This document shows, in pieces, positions 36,222 through 60,008 of a stretch of DNA of 64,000 nucleotides (position 1 is the first letter of the stretch; every line of letters starts with the position of its first letter). The position numbers were made by a program, and so were the translations under genes. Under the pieces are notes generated by a model. It ran no database searches. It worked only from the letters and a program-made list of their open reading frames with translations, and was not told where the DNA came from. The DNA comes from Maribacter luteus (GTDB lineage Bacteria > Bacteroidota > Bacteroidia > Flavobacteriales > Flavobacteriaceae). The stretch spans positions 62,432 through 126,431 of the forward strand of contig NZ_WKJH01000028.1 in the NCBI RefSeq assembly GCF_009674825.1, in the 5' to 3' direction.

Positions 36222-36248
36222 AAAAAAAGTCCCGTTTTTCACGGGACT
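36222..36248 (-). terminator. Attenuator (terminator) in the pheA leader
   Basis: Minus strand AGTCCCG (36248-36242), 7-base loop, CGGGACT (36234-36228), then a run of T (36227-36222). The stem is 7 bp, perfect and GC-rich. It lies between the leader peptide and pheA, the place expected of a transcription attenuator. Confidence 0.88.
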
Positions 36249-36277
36249 CAATGTTATATTTTAGTACTAGCAATACA

Positions 36278-36349
36278 CTACAACAGTCCCGTTCCTCCTT
36301 TATAAAAGAAGAAAAAATAAAAACTGTTAAAGAAATACTGCTTACTCAT
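36278..36349 (-). CDS. Phe/Tyr-rich leader peptide of the pheA operon
   Basis: 23 codons plus stop TAG, starting MSKQYFFNSFYFFFFY. Residues 5-16 hold seven Phe and three Tyr, ten aromatic residues out of twelve. This is far above chance and matches control-codon clusters of amino-acid attenuators. The last codons overlap antiterminator strand 2. No function as a protein is expected. It is followed by the attenuator stem and then pheA, and it covers both Phe and Tyr, the two end products of the operon. Confidence 0.88.
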   Translation of the reverse strand: MSKQYFFNSFYFFFFYKGGTGLL

Positions 36350-36473
36350 TATCTTTGTAAATCTGGGACTAAGGTAATTATTAAATTTAAAAAACAAATC
36401 CAAAGTCGGTCTTTTTTTGAATTTTTCTAAAAAAACCAATTCCGTTGTTTATTTTTCTCTAAAAACATACTTT

Positions 36474-39672: not shown

Positions 39673-40626
39673 TCAAAACACCTCTTTTGCAATGGCATGT
39701 ATATTATCAGATTTACCCATGGAATAGTAGTGCAAAACCGGGACACCGGCCGCTTTCAACTCCTTTGATTGTTGAATGGCCCACTCAACACCAACCTGAC
39801 GAACTGCTTTATTGTCGGCACACCCATCAACGGCATCTATCAAATCCTGGGGTAGGTCTATACGGAAAACCTGAGGTAATAATTGTAAATGCCTTTTAAC
39901 CGCAATGGGTTTAATACCAGGAATAATAGGCACGGTAATGCCCATGTTCCTTGCTGCTTCCACAAATTGAAAATACTTTTGATTATCGAAGAACATTTGG
40001 GTCACAACATAATCGGCCCCGGCATCAACTTTTTGCTTCAATCGTTTAAGATCTGACTGCAGGGAAGGTGCTTCCAAGTGCTTTTCAGGATAGCCGGCCA
40101 CTCCGATACAAAAGTCCGCATTATCATCATTCTCTATCATTTCGTGCAAATATTTACCTTTATTCAGGTCATTTATCTGCTCCACCAAATTCAATGCATA
40201 GGCATGCCCCCCTTTAGTGGGCTCAAAATATTTCTGTTCCCTACGGGCATCTCCACGTAAGGCCATCACATTCTCAATTCCCAAATAATGGCAATCGATC
40301 AACACATATTCGGTTTCCTCTTTGGTAAATCCACCACATAAGATATGCGGAACGGTATCTACCTGATATTTATGCTTTATCGAAGCACAAATACCGACCG
40401 TACCTGGCCGCATACGTGTCAATTTTTTATCCAGCAGACCGTCTCGATCAATATAGATATACTCCTCCCGGGAAGTGGTTACATCAATGAATGGAGGTTT
40501 AAACTCTATCAACGGATCGATATTATTATACAACTCCTGTATATTTCTTCCTTTTACCGGCGGAATCAACTCAAAAGAGAACAACGTCTCGCCTTTGGCA
40601 TTTTTTATATGGTCTGTTACTTTCAT
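39673..40626 (-). CDS. metF: Methylenetetrahydrofolate reductase (MetF)
   Basis: 317 residues, TIM barrel. It starts MKVTDHIKNAKGETLFSFELIPP (the FEFFPP-like start with the catalytic Glu) and shows NVMALRGDARREQ and DAGADYVVTQMFFDN, the flavin and folate motifs. It reduces methylene-THF to methyl-THF, the methyl donor for MetH. It lies downstream of the split metH genes across a 162-base spacer that holds a structured repeat. Confidence 0.96.
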   Translation of the reverse strand: MKVTDHIKNAKGETLFSFELIPPVKGRNIQELYNNIDPLIEFKPPFIDVTTSREEYIYIDRDGLLDKKLTRMRPGTVGICASIKHKYQVDTVPHILCGGFTKEETEYVLIDCHYLGIENVMALRGDARREQKYFEPTKGGHAYALNLVEQINDLNKGKYLHEMIENDDNADFCIGVAGYPEKHLEAPSLQSDLKRLKQKVDAGADYVVTQMFFDNQKYFQFVEAARNMGITVPIIPGIKPIAVKRHLQLLPQVFRIDLPQDLIDAVDGCADNKAVRQVGVEWAIQQSKELKAAGVPVLHYYSMGKSDNIHAIAKEVF

Positions 40627-40669: not shown

Positions 40670-40778
40670 GGCGTTCCCCAAAATGGGTCGGGCTATTCGC
40701 TATATTTTTTTCGTAAAACAATTTTACCAAACACAATTGAACGGTCCCGAAAAAAGATGCCGCTGCTATCCCTAACGC
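40670..40778 (-). ncRNA. Flavobacterial structured repeat (Flavo-1-like), copy A
   Basis: Minus strand reads GCGTTAGGGATAGCAGCGGC ... AATAGCCCGACCC, hairpin CCCATTTTGGGG, AACGCC. Outer ends GCGTT and AACGC pair, and CTTTTTTCG pairs with CGAAAAAAA inside. The layout recalls a structured repeat that I have seen often downstream of flavobacterial genes, possibly the Flavo-1 motif; I cannot check the covariance model. It begins 11 bases after the metH stop and lies before metF. Confidence 0.5.
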
Positions 40779-40788
40779 AAATCCTTCT

Positions 40789-43512
40789 TTAATCCTCACT
40801 AATATTCGGTGCCAACCACTTTTTGGCATCCGCAATCGGCATTCCTTTGCGCGCTGCATAATCCTGTACCTGATCTTCTTTTATTTTCCCTAATCCAAAA
40901 TACCGGGCCTCAGGGTGTGCAAAATAATAACCACTTACACTGGCTGCAGGCCACATGGCCAAGCTCTCGGTCAGTTCTACCCCGATTTTTTCCTTTACAC
41001 CCAATACTTCCCATAAGGTTAATTTTTCCAAATGGTCCGGGCATGCAGGGTATCCTGGTGCCGGTCTAATACCTTTATACCCCTCATTGATCAGATCCTC
41101 ATTGCTCAATTGCTCTTCCTTGGCATATCCCCAATAATCAACACGAACCTCCTTGTGTAAATATTCCGCAAATGCTTCGGCCAATCGATCGGCCAATGCC
41201 TTGATCAAAATAGCATTGTAATCATCATGGTTCTTTTCATATTCCGCGGCCAATTCCGCAGTACCAAAACCAGCACTTACACAAAAACATCCTATATAAT
41301 CCTGTAAACCTTGGTTCTTGGGAGCAATGAAATCGGACAGCGCAAAATTAGGCACTCCATCCCGTTTTTTCAATTGTTGGCGTAGGGTTCGGAATATATA
41401 ATTTTTTCCATCGGCCTCTATTTCTATATCATCTTCATTAATAGTGTTGGCTTTGAACAAACCGAAAACTGCTTTTGCCTTCAATAATTTCTTTTCTACC
41501 ACCTCTTTCAACATTTCCTGTGCATCTGCAAAAAGCTCTGTGGCTTGTTCCCCAACAACATTGTCCGTAAGGATATCGGGGAATCTACCATGCAATTCCC
41601 AGCTTCTGAAAAACGGGGTCCAATCAATGAACGGCAGTAATTTATTCAGGTCCAGATCATCGATAACCTGAATACCCATTGAATTTGGATTAACAAGATC
41701 GGTACCTTTCCAATCTATTTGAAACTTGTTCGCCCTAGCATCTTCGATAGATCTATATTCTTTATGTTTTGCCCGGTTCTTAAACTTATCACGGAACGTT
41801 TCATAATCGAGTTTTATCGATTGCTTGTAGGTTTCGGAGGTTTCTTTTTGCAAAAGATCACCAACCACCGTTACGGCCCTAGAAGCATCATTTACATGCA
41901 CTACCGCATTCTGGTATTCAATATCTATCTTCACGGCAGTATGGGCCTTGCTGGTCGTGGCTCCCCCTATGAGCAAAGGCACGTTGAAATTCTGACGTTG
42001 CATTTCCTTAGCCAAAAACACCATTTCATCCAATGAAGGGGTAATCAAACCACTTAAACCGATTACATCTACATTTTCTTTTTTGGCAGCCTCGATGATT
42101 TTTTCCGGAGGCACCATTACCCCTAGGTCAATAATATCATAATTGTTACAGGCCAAAACAACACTTACTATATTTTTCCCTATATCGTGTACATCGCCCT
42201 TAACAGTTGCCATTAAAATTTTTCCAGCCGAACCACCAGAGACCGCATCGGGATTGTTTTTCTTTTCTTCTTCAATATACGGCAATAGATACGCTACCGC
42301 CTTCTTCATGACACGGGCAGACTTTACAACTTGAGGCAAAAACATTTTACCACTTCCGAACAGATCACCCACAACGTTCATACCCGTCATTAAATGACCT
42401 TCGATGACCTCAATAGTATTATCTACACTTTTACGGGCGGTTTCTACATCTTCAACGATATACTGGTCGATACCTTTGACCAAAGCCCTAGTAATCCTAT
42501 TCTGCAGAGGTTCCTCTCTCCATGAAAGATCGATTTTATTCTCTTTGGCCTTACCAACCACGGATTCTGCAAAATCGAGCAATCTCTCAGTTGCATCGTC
42601 CCGGCGATCAAGAATCACATCTTCAACATGTTCCAACAAATCTTTCGGAATATCATCATAAACCTCTAACATCGTAGGGTTTACGATTCCCATATTCATA
42701 CCTGCTTTTATGGCATAATACAGAAAAACCGAATGCATGGCTTCCCTCACTGGATTATTACCGCGAAAACTAAAGGAAACATTACTAACACCACCACTTA
42801 CACTACAGTAAGGGAGGTTTTCGCGCACCCATTTGGTGGCCTCGATAAAGTCAAGGGCATTTCGCCTATGTTCATCCATTCCCGTAGCAACGGGGAACAC
42901 ATTCAAATCGAAAATAATATCCTCGGGGGCAAAATTCACTTCATTGACCAAAATGTCATATGAGCGTTTTGCTATCTCAACCCTTCGTTCAAAATTATCA
43001 GCTTGGCCTACCTCATCAAAAGCCATTACGATAACGGCAGCCCCATAACGCCTTATTAATTTGGCATGTTGAACGAATTGTTCCTCACCCTCTTTTAGAC
43101 TTATGGAATTCACAACGGATTTACCTTGTACCACTTGAAGACCTGCCTCGATAATCTCCCATTTAGAACTATCTATCATAATGGGCACCCGGGCTATATC
43201 GGGTTCTGCCATTAAAAGGTTCAGGTACTTTACCATGGACTCTTTCCCGTCTATGAGTCCGTCATCCATATTAATATCAATGACCTGTGCACCACCTTCT
43301 ACTTGATGACGGGCAACATCAAGGGCTTCTTCGAATTTCTCCTCTTTGATAAGACGAAGGAATTTCCTTGATCCGGCCACATTGGTACGTTCCCCAACAT
43401 TAATGAAATTACTTTCAGGAGTAACTATCAATGGCTCTAGACCGCTTAATTTCAAATATTTGGATTCCTGACTATGATTAACGGTGGTTCTTATGTTGGA
43501 TGCATCACTCAT
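40789..43512 (-). CDS. metH: Methionine synthase MetH, pterin/cobalamin/AdoMet-activation part
   Basis: 907 residues carrying three of the four MetH modules: methyl-THF (pterin) domain (about 30-310, [44 protein letters not shown]), cobalamin domain (about 330-560, [13 protein letters not shown] with the Co-ligating His) and AdoMet reactivation domain (about 580-900, ending near [11 protein letters not shown]). The homocysteine domain is encoded by the separate gene 155 bases upstream. Together they methylate homocysteine. The structured repeat copy A follows its stop. Confidence 0.96.
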
Positions 43513-43666: not shown

Positions 43667-44674
43667 CTACTCTAAACTATTTGCCAAAGATTTTCTTGGC
43701 TTAAAGCCCTTGACCAAACTTGCCATTGCCGAAATATGTTCCGGGGTAGTTCCACAGCATCCGCCAACGATATTCACCAATCCTTTTTCTAAATATTCTT
43801 TTATCTGTTCCGCCATTTGTTCGGGGGTTTCATCATATTCCCCAAAAGCATTAGGCAAACCGGCATTAGGGTGTGCCGAAACCGCGAAATCGGTTTTTGA
43901 AGACAAGACTTCTAAATGGGGCACCAACTGACTTGCCCCCAGTGCACAATTGAAACCTACGGATAGTATTGGAATATGTGATACGGAAATCAAAAATGCC
44001 TCCGCCGTTTGACCCGACAACGTTCGTCCTGAAGCATCTGTAATGGTACCGCTTACCATAACCGGCACATCAACCTTACGTTCTTCCTTTACTTCTTCAA
44101 TTGCAAACAGGGCCGCCTTGGCATTTAATGTGTCAAAAATAGTTTCGACAAGAAGAAGATCCACGCCCCCATCCACTAAAGCCTCAACCTGCTGTTTATA
44201 AGCAATTCGTAGTTCGTCAAATGATACAGCCCTAAACCCTGGGTCATTAACATCCGGGGACATACTTGCCGTTTTATTGGTAGGGCCTATGCTGCCAGCA
44301 ACAAAACGTGGTTTATCGGGTTCTTTTGCCGTGAATTCATCTGCTACCTTACGTGCAATCCGGGCACTTTCATAATTAAGTTCATATACCAAATCTTCCA
44401 TATGGTAATCAGCCATGGCTATGGTAGTACCTGAAAAGGTGTTGGTTTCAATAATATCGGCACCCGCCTCAAGATACTTGGCGTGAACCGTTGCTATGGC
44501 CTCTGGTTGGGTAAGTGAAAGAAGGTCATTATTACCTTGTAAGGGACTCGGCCAGTCCTTGAATCTATCCCCACGAAAATCCTCTTCAGTAAATTTATAG
44601 CGCTGTAACATGGTACCCATTGCACCGTCTAAAACCAAAACCCTCTCTTTTAATATACTCCTTATGTCTTTCAT
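43667..44674 (-). CDS. metH: Methionine synthase MetH, homocysteine-binding part
   Basis: 335 residues, a TIM barrel equal to the first MetH module: [26 protein letters not shown] at the start, zinc-ligand cysteines in GFNCALG and [10 protein letters not shown]. It ends SLANSLE in a linker position, and the second part begins with its own Met, so the split is at the domain boundary and not a frameshift. It must associate with the downstream product to be active. Its long leader carries a SAM-I riboswitch. Confidence 0.95.
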
Positions 44675-44781: not shown

Positions 44782-44858
44782 TCTACTATTTTTATTTATC
44801 AAGGAAAGGGCTAAGACATATGTCCTTATGATGGGGTTATCTTTCACGCCCATGGCCT

Positions 44859-44951
44859 GATAGAATTTAGCACCTTCTTATTCCCGTAACGGACTGGAAA
44901 AAAGGGTTGCCAAGGTTTCATAGGGTCTAGTCCCTCCGCCTTTCTTGATAA
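44859..44951 (-). promoter_or_regulatory. SAM-I riboswitch upstream of metH
   Basis: Minus strand contains the S-box core: TTATCAAGAAAGGCGGAGGG, ATGAAACCTTGGCAACC, a P3 hairpin, then GGTGCTAAATTCTATC. These are the invariant SAM-binding segments. Unlike the metY copy, no P1 partner follows immediately after P4. Instead TTATCAAGGAAAGG on the plus strand (44796-44809) marks a downstream strand complementary to P1+P2. About 185 bases lie between aptamer and metH start. Confidence 0.88.
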
Positions 44952-45424
44952 CTTCTTCAATGTATTAAAGAACTCGTTGCAAATTAACGGCACTGTTTGC
45001 TCAAAAACAAGGAATAACCTTAGTTTTAGGCTATTGCTTTAAATTTCACCAATTGTAGTCAAAAACTTCCTGACCCTTCCCTCATCTTTACAACTTTTGC
45101 TCAAAGTTCCCCTAAAGGGTATCCTTAAAAGCATTTAGACCGTATATCACATGATTATTTACTAGTGAAGGAATTCTGGATAAACCACCTCGAGCTTTTT
45201 GCTTTTGTCTAATTCATTGGATTTGTCGGAATAGCCATTCAAACATTACCTTTTCATAGCCATGACAACCATTCTACATTCATAATACGAAAGACAATCG
45301 ACCATGGCACCGCTGATAACAAGTACCCAATACAGGTGATAAAAGAAATTTAGGGTTTCGGAATGCCTTACTATCATTCCCAAACAAAGTTTTTAAGAAT
45401 AAAGCAATCAATGACCTTGAATAC
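44952..45424. other. Gene-free stretch downstream of cobA
   Basis: About 470 bases without a convincing reading frame on either strand. The left end (44952-45020) probably holds the metH promoter: minus-strand TTAATTTG near 44990 with TTTTTG about 14 bases upstream, an imperfect match. A 6-bp hairpin GGAATG/CATTCC (45360-45380) lies after the cobA stop without a U-run. Nothing else is recognised. Confidence 0.5.
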
Positions 45425-56935: not shown

Positions 56936-58213
56936 TTATCCAATTGTCGAAAAAGCTTGTTCTAAATCAGCCTTAAGATCTTCTATATCTTCCAATCCCA
57001 CAGATAAACGAATCAAATCCTGACCTACCCCTGCGGTTTCTTGTTGCTCTTCCGTCAATTGTTGGTGTGTTGTACTCGCAGGATGGATGATCAAAGATTT
57101 CGTATCACCGATATTGGCCAATAAAGAGAATATTTTAGTCGCATCGGTGACTTTTTTTGCAGCTTCGAACCCGCCTTTTACACCGAATGTCACCAAACCG
57201 CTTTGACCTTTTGGCAAATATTCCTGGGCCAAATCGTAGTACTTGCTACTTTTCAGACCTGGGTAATTTACCCACGCGACCTCTTCCCGTCCTTCTAACC
57301 ATGTAGCCAACTCCAACGCATTCTCACTATGCTGCTTTATACGAACGGATAATGTTTCCAAACCTTGAATGATCTGAAAAGCGTTAAACGGACTAAGTGC
57401 ACCTCCGAAATCGCGTAATCCTTCCAAAATCAATTTAAATGTAAATGCCGCTGCTCCTAAGGCTTCGCTATATACCAAACCGTGATAACCTGCAGAAGGT
57501 TCGGTGAATTCCGGATATTTGCCGTTTGCCCAATCAAATGTACCTGCATCGATTACAGCACCACCCAAAGAAGTTCCTTGGCCACCGATATATTTCGTCA
57601 GCGAATGGATCACAAGGTTCGCACCGTATTCAATAGGATTCAACAAAGCTGGCGATGCAACAGTATTATCGACAATGAAAGGCACTTGGGCTGTTTTGGC
57701 TTGTTCTGAAATAGATTTTAGATCCAACACATCTAATTTTGGATTTCCCAACGATTCCACAAAAATTGCCCTTGTATTATCTTGTACCGCTTTTCCGAAA
57801 TTTGCAGGTTCTGAAGCATCGACGAACGTGGTCGTAATTCCCAACCTTGGTAAAGTAACGTTCAATAAATTAAAAGTACCCCCATATAAACTACTGGAAG
57901 CCACAATATGATCTCCCGCCTTTAACAATGTCAATAAAGTTGTGGAAATAGCGGAAGTCCCTGAAGCAAAGACCACAGCACCTACACCACCTTCTACAGC
58001 AGCCAACCTATTCTGTAAAATTTCATTGGTCGGGTTGTTCAACCTTGTATAGATAAAACCCAGCTCTGCCAACGAAAATAAGTTAGCGGCATGATCGGTA
58101 TTATCGAATACATACGATGAAGTTTGATAAATAGGCACTGCTCGTGTTCCACCCGTTTTCGTGGTGTCATGACCGGCATGCAATGCGTTTGTTGTAAATT
58201 TTTGATTACCCAT
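56936..58213 (-). CDS. metY: O-acetylhomoserine sulfhydrylase (MetY)
   Basis: 425 residues, PLP enzyme of the same superfamily as the gene at 52301 but longer, as typical for MetY. It has FTTNALHAGHDTTKTGGTRA at the start, YTRLNNPTNEILQNRLAAVEGG, and the PLP-Lys in VIHSLTKYIGGQGTSLGG. It makes homocysteine from O-acetylhomoserine and sulfide. It is first in a minus-strand series metY, MetX-ThrA, sulfhydrylase, Rrf2 and lies behind a SAM-I riboswitch. Confidence 0.94.
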   Translation of the reverse strand: MGNQKFTTNALHAGHDTTKTGGTRAVPIYQTSSYVFDNTDHAANLFSLAELGFIYTRLNNPTNEILQNRLAAVEGGVGAVVFASGTSAISTTLLTLLKAGDHIVASSSLYGGTFNLLNVTLPRLGITTTFVDASEPANFGKAVQDNTRAIFVESLGNPKLDVLDLKSISEQAKTAQVPFIVDNTVASPALLNPIEYGANLVIHSLTKYIGGQGTSLGGAVIDAGTFDWANGKYPEFTEPSAGYHGLVYSEALGAAAFTFKLILEGLRDFGGALSPFNAFQIIQGLETLSVRIKQHSENALELATWLEGREEVAWVNYPGLKSSKYYDLAQEYLPKGQSGLVTFGVKGGFEAAKKVTDATKIFSLLANIGDTKSLIIHPASTTHQQLTEEQQETAGVGQDLIRLSVGLEDIEDLKADLEQAFSTIG

Positions 58214-58384
58214 GATTTTAATTTGTTTATGTTGTTAATAAAATAAATCAAAACACTAGTACCTGTGCTGCGATTCGCAACTAGGAATAATCAAAAAGTT
58301 AAAAAGAAAGAGACAATTACAAAAATGTAATTCGTTTCGTTATCTATTCTTGCCTAAATTAAAGGATACTGAAAACATTCAGCC
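58214..58384 (-). promoter_or_regulatory. Expression-platform region between the SAM-I aptamer and metY
   Basis: This 171-base untranslated segment contains, on the minus strand, a 7-bp hairpin AATTACA/TGTAATT (58332-58315) followed by a U-rich run, a possible weak terminator, and later a CTAGT/ACTAG hairpin around a second TGCGA/TCGCA stem (58286-58257 region). The exact switching mechanism is not clear from the sequence. Confidence 0.4.
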
Positions 58385-58470
58385 TCAAGATAGAATTTAG
58401 CACCTTCTTTGCACAGGAGGCAAAGGGTTGCTAAGGCTTCACAGGGTCTATTCCCTCCACCTTTCTTGAT
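58385..58470 (-). promoter_or_regulatory. SAM-I (S-box) riboswitch upstream of metY
   Basis: Minus strand begins ATCAAGAAAGGTGGAGGG, continues with GTGAAGCCTTAGCAACC, a P3 hairpin CTTTGC/GCAAAG, and GGTGCTAAATTCTATC. P1 closes with TCAAGA (58469-58464) and TCTTGA (58390-58385). The kink-turn/SAM-core sequences are those of class I SAM riboswitches. It is predicted to reduce expression of metY and genes behind it when SAM is high. Confidence 0.93.
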
Positions 58471-58503
58471 AACAATTCAATATGTGTTTGAACTTTTGAA
58501 CGG

Positions 58504-58551: not shown

Positions 58552-59808
58552 TCACATTTTAAATGCGGATTTTACCGCATCTACCATATCCAATTTTTCC
58601 CATGTGAACAACTCCACTTCTTTTTCAATCCTACCATTATAAGGGGATTCAAAAATCTTTGTTATTGTCTGGGGCTCTTTACCCATATGACCGTAAGCTG
58701 CGGTTTCCAAATAAATAGGGTTACGAAGCTTAAGTCTTTCTTCTATGGCAAAAGGACGCATATCGAACAATTGCGATACTATGGTCGCTATTTCCCCGTC
58801 TGAATATGAAATTTTAGACGTGCCGTAGGTGTTTACAAAAATCGATGTTGGCTCTACAACGCCTATGGCATAACTTACTTGTACCAATATTTCATCTGAA
58901 ACGCCAGCAGCTACTAAATTTTTTGCAATATGGCGTGCCGCATAAGCTGCACTACGATCCACTTTACTAGGATCCTTACCACTGAAAGCACCACCACCAT
59001 GTGCCCCTTTACCACCATAAGTATCCACAATGATCTTTCTTCCCGTAAGTCCCGTGTCACCGTGCGGACCTCCTATTACAAATTTCCCGGTCGGATTTAT
59101 ATGGTATTTTATTTGATCATCGAATAAAGCTTGGTCGCTTTCCGGTAATTGCTCAATTACCTTCGGCATTAAGATTGAAATAATATCTTCCTTGATCTTG
59201 GCAAGCATCTTATCATCATCAGCATCAAAAGCATCATGCTGTGTAGATACAACGATAGTATCGATACGCTGCGGAACATTATCGTCGGAGTACTCAATAG
59301 TTACTTGGGCCTTGGCATCTGGCCTTAAATATGAAATCTCGGTCCCTTCCCTTCTAATGGTTGCGAGGGTCTGCAATATCCTATGGGAAATATCCAAAGC
59401 CAAAGGCATATAATTTTCGGTTTCCTTGGTGGCATAACCGAACATCATTCCCTGATCCCCAGCTCCCTGCTCTTCTTTAGACCCACGGTCAACACCTTGG
59501 TTAATGTCTTGTGATTGTTCATGAATCAAAGAAATAACACCACATGAATCGCCACTGAATTGGTATTCCCCTTTCGTGTATCCTATTTTATTTACGACAT
59601 CGCGTGCAATATTCTGAACATCTAAATACGTATCACTCCTAACTTCACCGGCCAGGACTACCTGCCCCGTAGTTACCAAGGTTTCACAAGCTACTTTACT
59701 TTCGGGATCGAAAGCCAAAAAACTATCCAATAATGCATCACTGATTTGATCGGCAACTTTGTCCGGATGCCCTTCACTAACAGATTCTGAGGTAAATAAA
59801 TATGCCAT
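58552..59808 (-). CDS. metK: S-adenosylmethionine synthetase (MetK)
   Basis: 418 residues; makes SAM from methionine and ATP. Starts [25 protein letters not shown] (the first ATP site), with GEQSxDI-type [23 protein letters not shown] and the P-loop-like [21 protein letters not shown]. About 30 residues longer than the E. coli enzyme, mainly by a segment near 195-225. Preceded by a 190-base leader with a SAM-II-like pseudoknot. Confidence 0.97.
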
Positions 59809-59882
59809 TTTTATAAAAATAGATGGGAGGAAATAAAAAAAGATTGCGAAAAAGGCGAATAAACTGAATGAAATCAGTTATC

Positions 59883-59997
59883 ACTGCTTTAGCATTTTTA
59901 CAATACCGAACTTAGTCCAGTATCCAGTTCCCTTAAGAACCAGGCCCTAATTTAAATTTTAGGCTATGAGGTTGCAATCAGTCAAATCTTTCCTCTC
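59883..59997 (-). promoter_or_regulatory. SAM-II-like riboswitch with long inserted hairpins, upstream of metK
   Basis: Minus strand: P1 GAGG/CCTC encloses GATTTGACTGATTGCAA, close to the SAM-II loop GATTTAACCGTATTGCAA. The 3' strand AATGCTAAAGCAGT matches the SAM-II end (GCTAAA plus a pseudoknot strand). ACTG (59982-59979) pairs with CAGT (59886-59883), in the place where SAM-II uses CC and GG. Between them are three extra hairpins, including a 9-bp ATACTGGAC/GTTCGGTAT stem. I infer a long-loop SAM-II variant. Confidence 0.7.
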
Positions 59998-60008
59998 AAG
60001 ATTGGGGA

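Follow-up and report, generated by a model that had tools for sequence, protein, structure and literature searches.

A probable ribosome-mediated transcription attenuator upstream of the phenylalanine/tyrosine operon of Maribacter luteus

The region upstream of pheA in Maribacter luteus very probably encodes a ribosome-mediated transcription attenuator of a Phe/Tyr operon, a reading to which a probability of about 0.92 is assigned. It was identified in a window of 64,000 nucleotides, the whole stretch of DNA analysed here (contig NZ_WKJH01000028.1, positions 62,432 to 126,431). The reading rests on direct observation of a short aromatic-rich leader frame and its conservation, of the complementary strands, of covariation in two of the pairings that they form (2:3 and 3:4), and of the operon downstream. 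An attenuator covering both Phe and Tyr codons had been proposed for this position in the initial annotation, and the finding that 2:3 and 3:4 exclude one another and both covary supports that proposal. The coordinates of all features are collected in Table 1.

Table 1. Features of the leader region and operon in the window, numbered from the first letter of the window.
Feature	Position	Strand	Basis or pairing partner
Promoter -7-like box TACCTTAG (TAnnTTTG type)	36376-36369	(-)	Box type in 79 of 81 close-set upstream regions
Putative leader peptide frame MSKQYFFNSFYFFFFYKGGTGLL*	36349-36278	(-)	23 codons, translation; 10 F/Y among residues 5-16
Strand 1 (corrected), leader codons 8-10	36328-36320	(-)	Predicted to pair with 36290-36282
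Strand 2 ACGGGACTGTT, last leader codons	36292-36282	(-)	Partner is strand 1 or strand 3
Strand 3 AGTCCCGT	36248-36241	(-)	Partner is strand 2 (antiterminator) or strand 4 (terminator); both covary
Strand 4 ACGGGACT, terminator 3' arm	36235-36228	(-)	Terminator scan; 3:4 covariation
Run of 7 T, predicted attenuation site	36228-36222	(-)	Sequence, terminator scan
pheA, prephenate dehydratase	36184-35357	(-)	PF00800, 191.6 bits; weak ACT, 23.1 bits, below cut-off 27
Class I/II aminotransferase	35360-34215	(-)	PF00155
tyrA, prephenate dehydrogenase	34213-33356	(-)	NF006307 over cut-off, PF02153
DAHP synthase fused to chorismate mutase	33343-32261	(-)	PF00793 and PF01817
Intrinsic terminator closing the operon	32256-32231	(-)	Terminator scan

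The minus-strand frame of 23 codons, noted initially for its ten aromatic residues in twelve codons, agrees with its translation. Its stop codon lies 28 nt before the terminator, and a further 37 nt separate the terminator T-run from the pheA ATG. A leader and a terminator are present at 80 of the 80 loci most similar in pheA, the best of at least 569 (the close set, whose members are Flavobacteriaceae wherever they are named to that rank or below). In these best 80 of at least 569 loci the leader is 22-25 codons long, with the core YF[WFY]NGFYFYFFFKRGTGL[LF]. The start context in this set is A-rich: of 81 upstream regions, 68 have A at -3 and 6 contain Shine-Dalgarno-like words. Both observations agree with the description of the group in PMC9723704. 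Folding of the 161-nt leader gives z = -4.3, and none of 200 shuffled sequences is equally stable.

In the wider family, a leader with a terminator is called by a model-free procedure in 124 of the 130 genomes that have a pheA match, a set of 129 genera that includes the window's own genome. Most relatives thus possess the frame and its aromatic codons, the absence of which had been named in advance as grounds for abandoning the attenuator. Phe and Tyr codons are both present in all 124 called leaders, which contain on average 5.3 Phe, 3.5 Tyr, and 0.7 Trp codons. Read in frame, the TTN codons of the aromatic cluster in family leaders comprise 633 Phe and 1 Leu (TTR), compared with TTR fractions of 145/430 and 217/554 in the shifted frames, a contrast favoured by the drawing of cluster limits according to aromatic density.

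The leader is followed by an intrinsic terminator (36249-36227, minus strand) of nine pairs including an outermost G-T, with a loop of 5 and a run of 7 T; a GC-rich stem with T-run was correctly recognized at the outset, but its length of 7 bp was an underestimate. The octamer ACGGGACT at 36292-36285 (codons 20-22) is, as had been claimed, an exact copy of the terminator 3' strand; it is identical to 36235-36228 in all eight letters. Since strand 2 therefore contains an exact copy of strand 4, the pairings 2:3 and 3:4 are mutually exclusive.

Covariation was assessed in 80 distinct rows from the close set (the best 80 of at least 569 loci by pheA similarity). In alignment A1 two or three codons were removed, with the frame kept, from the 5' ends of three leaders (L060, L065, and L075). 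For 3:4, 97.5% of cells are paired, and 44 cells are changed on both sides compared with a shuffled mean of 7.8 (reached in 0 of 500 shuffles, a test inflated by related rows, as are the shuffle tests that follow), while the number of further pair types is not above shuffles (486/500). For 2:3, 93.4% of cells are paired, and 5 pairs and 9 cells are changed on both sides, with 0 of 500 shuffles reaching the observed values for pairing or for either count. Sliding the 2:3 partner by +1 or +3 yields 12 double-change cells, more than the 9 in register, but paired cells then amount to only 44.8% and 22.8%. The two outer 2:3 pairs are broken in 24 and 15 of the 80 rows. In some relatives all three strands change together, CGGGAC/GTCCCG becoming CAGGAC/GTCCTG in one locus (L026) and CGAGGC/GTCTCG in another (L068). 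The competing antiterminator of the initial annotation is thereby borne out by the same alignment check across relatives that was proposed with it.

The 2:3 pairing also persists where leaders have diverged. The mean energy of a diverged leader's own 2:3 duplex is -14.1 kcal/mol, compared with -6.5 for shuffles and -8.7 when partners are exchanged. Of 49 such leaders, 48 are more stable than the exchanged mean, and for 45 no more than 5 of 100 shuffles do as well. Own duplexes of the family set average -11.6 versus -8.8, own being better in 118 of 124, and at most 3 of 60 shuffles reach the own energy in 111 of 124. In an uncontrolled count, pairing of strand 2 begins at the 9th to 13th nucleotide past the final aromatic codon in 111 of 124 leaders; this spacing of 9-13 nt is about the reach of a stalled ribosome.

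The assignment of strand 1 differs from the original one, in which the 5' strand AGTCCCA (36370-36364) was to sequester strand 2. A box of TAnnTTAG type, resembling the flavobacterial -7 element TAnnTTTG, is shared by 79 of the 81 upstream regions in the close set (best 80 of at least 569 loci by pheA similarity), and AGTCCCA overlaps this conserved promoter-like box. The flavobacterial -7 box sits at -12 to -5 (PMC9723704), so that transcription is predicted from the box position to start near 36364 and all bases of AGTCCCA except the last would lie outside the RNA. Pairing at 6 or more of its 7 positions is possible in 6 of 79 rows, the window's own included, and not in the remaining 73. AGTCCCA is consequently rejected as a switch strand; it is promoter-like DNA and probably remains untranscribed.

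Leader codons 8-10 (N8-S/G9-F10) appear to fit strand 1 better, on grounds of pairing and not of covariation. Across the 80 distinct rows 94.4% of 1:2 cells are paired, and covariation of 1:2 in this close set is not above shuffles. The 1:2 pairing belongs to the minimum-energy fold of the window's leader. Across the family its mean energy is -10.1, versus -7.6 for codon-permuted leaders, and 35 of 124 genomes reach 0.05 or below; for the genome of the window the pairing is no better than in codon-permuted leaders (0.405).

The computed energies for the window are -13.7 kcal/mol for 1:2, -14.6 for 3:4, and -16.7 to -17.8 for 2:3 with its inner hairpin. Stalling was modelled by treating as unoccupied all RNA from 12 nt downstream of the A-site codon's first base. 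When transcription has proceeded as far as strand 3 and the ribosome is placed at codon 5, 7, 10, 12, 14, or 16, the minimum-energy fold contains 2:3; for a ribosome that has reached the stop codon, the energy computation yields 3:4 alone. When strand 4 is also present, the terminator fold is lower than 2:3 at every one of the six stall positions (-20.8 versus -17.0 kcal/mol at codons 12 and 14). As the terminator state is lower in energy once strand 4 has been made, the decision of the switch would have to be kinetic.

These elements suggest the following course of events, in which we infer the 1:2 step, the stalling, the co-transcriptional kinetics, the start site, and the response to Phe and Tyr. 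Transcription would begin near 36364, with translation of the leader following during its synthesis. Under a shortage of charged tRNA-Phe or tRNA-Tyr, the ribosome would stall in the aromatic run and cover strand 1 (codons 8-10), leaving strand 2 free to form the 2:3 antiterminator, and the polymerase would continue into pheA. With ample Phe and Tyr, the ribosome would reach the stop codon and cover strand 2, allowing the 3:4 terminator to form, and termination near 36222 would release an RNA of about 143 nt. If the leader were not translated, 1:2 would form first and the terminator would again follow.

The genes downstream are those of the amino acids presumed to be sensed. The four-gene order of Table 1 is the same in 75 loci of the close set, the best 80 of at least 569, and in the other 5 the contig ends inside the operon, with agreement as far as it can be followed. 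More distant loci vary: in five of them (L096, L120, L122, L123, and L126) a DAHP synthase match comes next after pheA, and neither an aminotransferase nor a tyrA match intervenes. Four of the features expected of an attenuator are found at this locus: codons for the regulated amino acids in a short, putatively translated frame, a terminator between the leader and the first gene, a competing antiterminator (2:3), and downstream genes that make the sensed amino acids.

Sister leaders occur in the same genome. A leader MKNINTHHHHFYTCSQAR with an HHHH run and a terminator lies upstream of hisG (L167) and has no Rfam match at the gathering score, and a leader MKINGSNTWWWSNLRTTS with a WWW run and a terminator lies upstream of trpE (L168) and matches Rfam Bacteroid-trp at 67 bits. 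A leader was also sought upstream of ilvD, and none is evident there. Bacteroid-trp (RF01692) is a leader RNA of the same phylum, located before the trp operon and containing Trp codons (PMC2864571); the earlier remark that a trp version had been described for Bacteroidota is accurate, and applies to this very genome. At 36222-36349 RF01692, the cut-off of which is 49 bits, gives no match at the gathering score and is unlisted up to E = 10.

The sister leaders also bear on whether the nascent peptide rather than tRNA shortage arrests the ribosome, an aromatic peptide, perhaps together with free Phe or Tyr, acting in the manner of TnaC. Conservation of the leader peptide within the close set (best 80 of at least 569) would accord with such arrest. 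However, the 124 family leaders share little by eye beyond the aromatic run, the conserved C-terminal G-L and the N-G-F can be explained by RNA pairing, and the sister leaders of this genome use HHHH and WWW runs; peptide arrest is very unlikely. Even less likely is a T-box or metabolite riboswitch, which could be entertained given that riboswitches are present elsewhere in the window; no Rfam family is found in the leader at the gathering score and no T-box or riboswitch family up to E = 10, and the idea can practically be discarded. Because no Rfam family reaches its cut-off on this element, the attenuator could be registered as a family of its own.

The pheA leader of enterobacteria (E. coli pheL) consists of a Phe-rich peptide and overlapping 1:2, 2:3, and 3:4 stems, with a terminator before pheA. 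In contrast to that system, Tyr is mixed with Phe in all 124 leaders described here, and the operon additionally includes tyrA and DAHP synthase. The Rfam Phe_leader model (RF01859) scores 20.5 bits in the window's leader against a cut-off of 55, which gives no membership, and membership in Phe_leader or Trp_leader is rejected on score. A comparative prediction of amino-acid attenuators by Vitreschak et al. in 2004 reportedly included pheA and touched on Bacteroidetes/Chlorobi.

A closer precedent is a 2021 study of Flavobacterium psychrophilum, which we take to be that of Guerin et al. It presents strong indications of leader-peptide attenuation at amino-acid operons and, upstream of pheA, a structured 5' element conserved in other Flavobacteriaceae genera and without an Rfam match (PMC9723704). 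That element is probably the same as the one described here. The section of PMC9723704 on the pheA element does not identify it as an attenuator, nor does it describe codons, strands, covariation, or an occurrence outside the family. The core of the interpretation first proposed is retained; the element itself, as a pheA 5' element already in print (PMC9723704), is less new than was suggested. The mechanism is classical; relative to the open-licence literature, what is added comprises the codons, the strands, the covariation, the corrected strand 1, and the reach through the family into the class. The mechanism depends on a ribosome that follows RNA polymerase closely, and the element could therefore be used as a natural reporter of transcription-translation coupling in Bacteroidota, a phylum in which promoters and translation starts depart from the usual models (PMC9723704).

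The distribution was examined further with a covariance model (R1) built from 81 aligned leaders, which finds matches in 103 of 149 family genomes; of its 108 matches, 99 share the strand of pheA and are located no more than 600 nt upstream of it. Among family genomes in which no leader is called, three (G311, G321, and G332) appear to be without the element, G332 having 382 nt upstream before the contig ends. In others the call is limited by the sequence examined, G345 having only 137 nt upstream and G377 an R1 match partly outside the stretch. In G422 (L219) a leader with 10 of 12 aromatic codons is present, and a frame is inserted between it and pheA (420-1025) that by eye resembles a REP-type transposase.

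The nine R1 matches away from pheA comprise L179-L184, L219, L220, and L221. The six of L179-L184 have a terminator; the frame of L179 contains 6 aromatics in 12, mixed with Leu and Ile, that of L182 contains 5 in 12, and those of L180, L181, L183, and L184 contain 3. The L221 match has neither a terminator nor an aromatic leader.

In a sample of the order and phylum, the element is called in 49 of 86 upstream regions, own genome included; these regions are loci returned or chosen among the matches, not all matches, and partly overlap the 130 family genomes. Control rates are 1/1720 for first-order Markov resampling of the upstream regions and 0/86 for reverse strands. The element is called in every region of the groups f1 (19/19), f17, f18, and f19 (5/5 each), f23 (2/2), f9 (2/2), and f3 (1/1), and in some regions of f2 (2/3), f22 (3/6), f15 (1/5), and other classes (4/19). 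None is called in f16 (600-kb genomes, 0/7), f5 (divergent pheA, 0/6), or f12 (0/1). Judging from its named close relatives, f1 would correspond to Flavobacteriaceae. Some of the negatives from other classes are weak, since in several of these genomes the dehydratase lies inside a longer frame (380-700 aa), so that the true gene start may not have been reached. Just below the call are L093-L095, with 5 of 12 aromatic codons and a terminator, and L100, with 8 of 12 and no terminator found. The classical attenuator layout is therefore seen at pheA through the family and in several other families of the class, on the basis of about one genome per genus and of covariation.

These controls also bear on the view that the locus contains a plain intrinsic terminator of fixed strength and that its short frame arose by chance from U-rich sequence. 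Phe codons do arise easily in U-rich DNA, but the frame-specific third positions, the 2:3 covariation, and the rarity of the element in resampled sequence leave this explanation scarcely credible, and attenuation by a translating ribosome remains the preferred reading.

A possible extension of the attenuator reading, which we regard as rather doubtful, is that the leader senses Phe, Tyr, and Trp together; the ground for it is that DAHP synthase, which catalyses the shared first step for all three, is likewise encoded in the operon. Of the 124 family leaders, 84 contain a Trp codon, in most cases 4-5 or 9-10 codons ahead of the point where the aromatic run ends; the window's own leader has none. 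The binomial test of this excess assumed a background of 1.2% and ignored relatedness. Among the 30 leaders called beyond the family, 8 contain a Trp codon, which in two of them lies outside the aromatic run; this is about the chance expectation and counts against Trp sensing. UGG can extend the 1:2 pairing in some close relatives (by eye), so the excess is not clean evidence of sensing. The Trp codons in 84 of 124 leaders are thus suggestive of three-amino-acid sensing, with relatedness and pairing of UGG in strand 1 as alternatives.

A natural variant that speaks for this extension is found in G330 (L220, 269-386), where the element precedes a DAHP synthase-chorismate mutase gene and the leader MTNNNTWWSNSKFYLKR contains WW and FY codons. 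This genome has no match to the prephenate dehydratase or dehydrogenase families, for which 14 of 14 control genomes are positive, and its predicted 2:3 pairing is weak (-8.4 kcal/mol). If the three-amino-acid reading were true, the leader codons would have been retuned to the enzymes downstream. The element as a whole offers natural leader variants, including this one before an isolated DAHP synthase.

Tandem leader and terminator units upstream of pheA are present in L132 (1 of 86 in the scan), and two tandem units before pheA were spotted by eye in L136 and L137, with terminators folded. Other structured RNAs in the 64-kb window comprise two SAM-I riboswitches and one SAM-II riboswitch identified with Rfam, at 58337-58475, 44834-44954, and 59879-60001, all on the minus strand and each located just upstream of a long frame on the same strand (56936-58213, 43667-44674, and 58552-59808, respectively). 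A match to Flavo-1 RNA (40682-40783, minus strand, 46.8 bits) lies between the frames 39673-40626 and 40789-43512.
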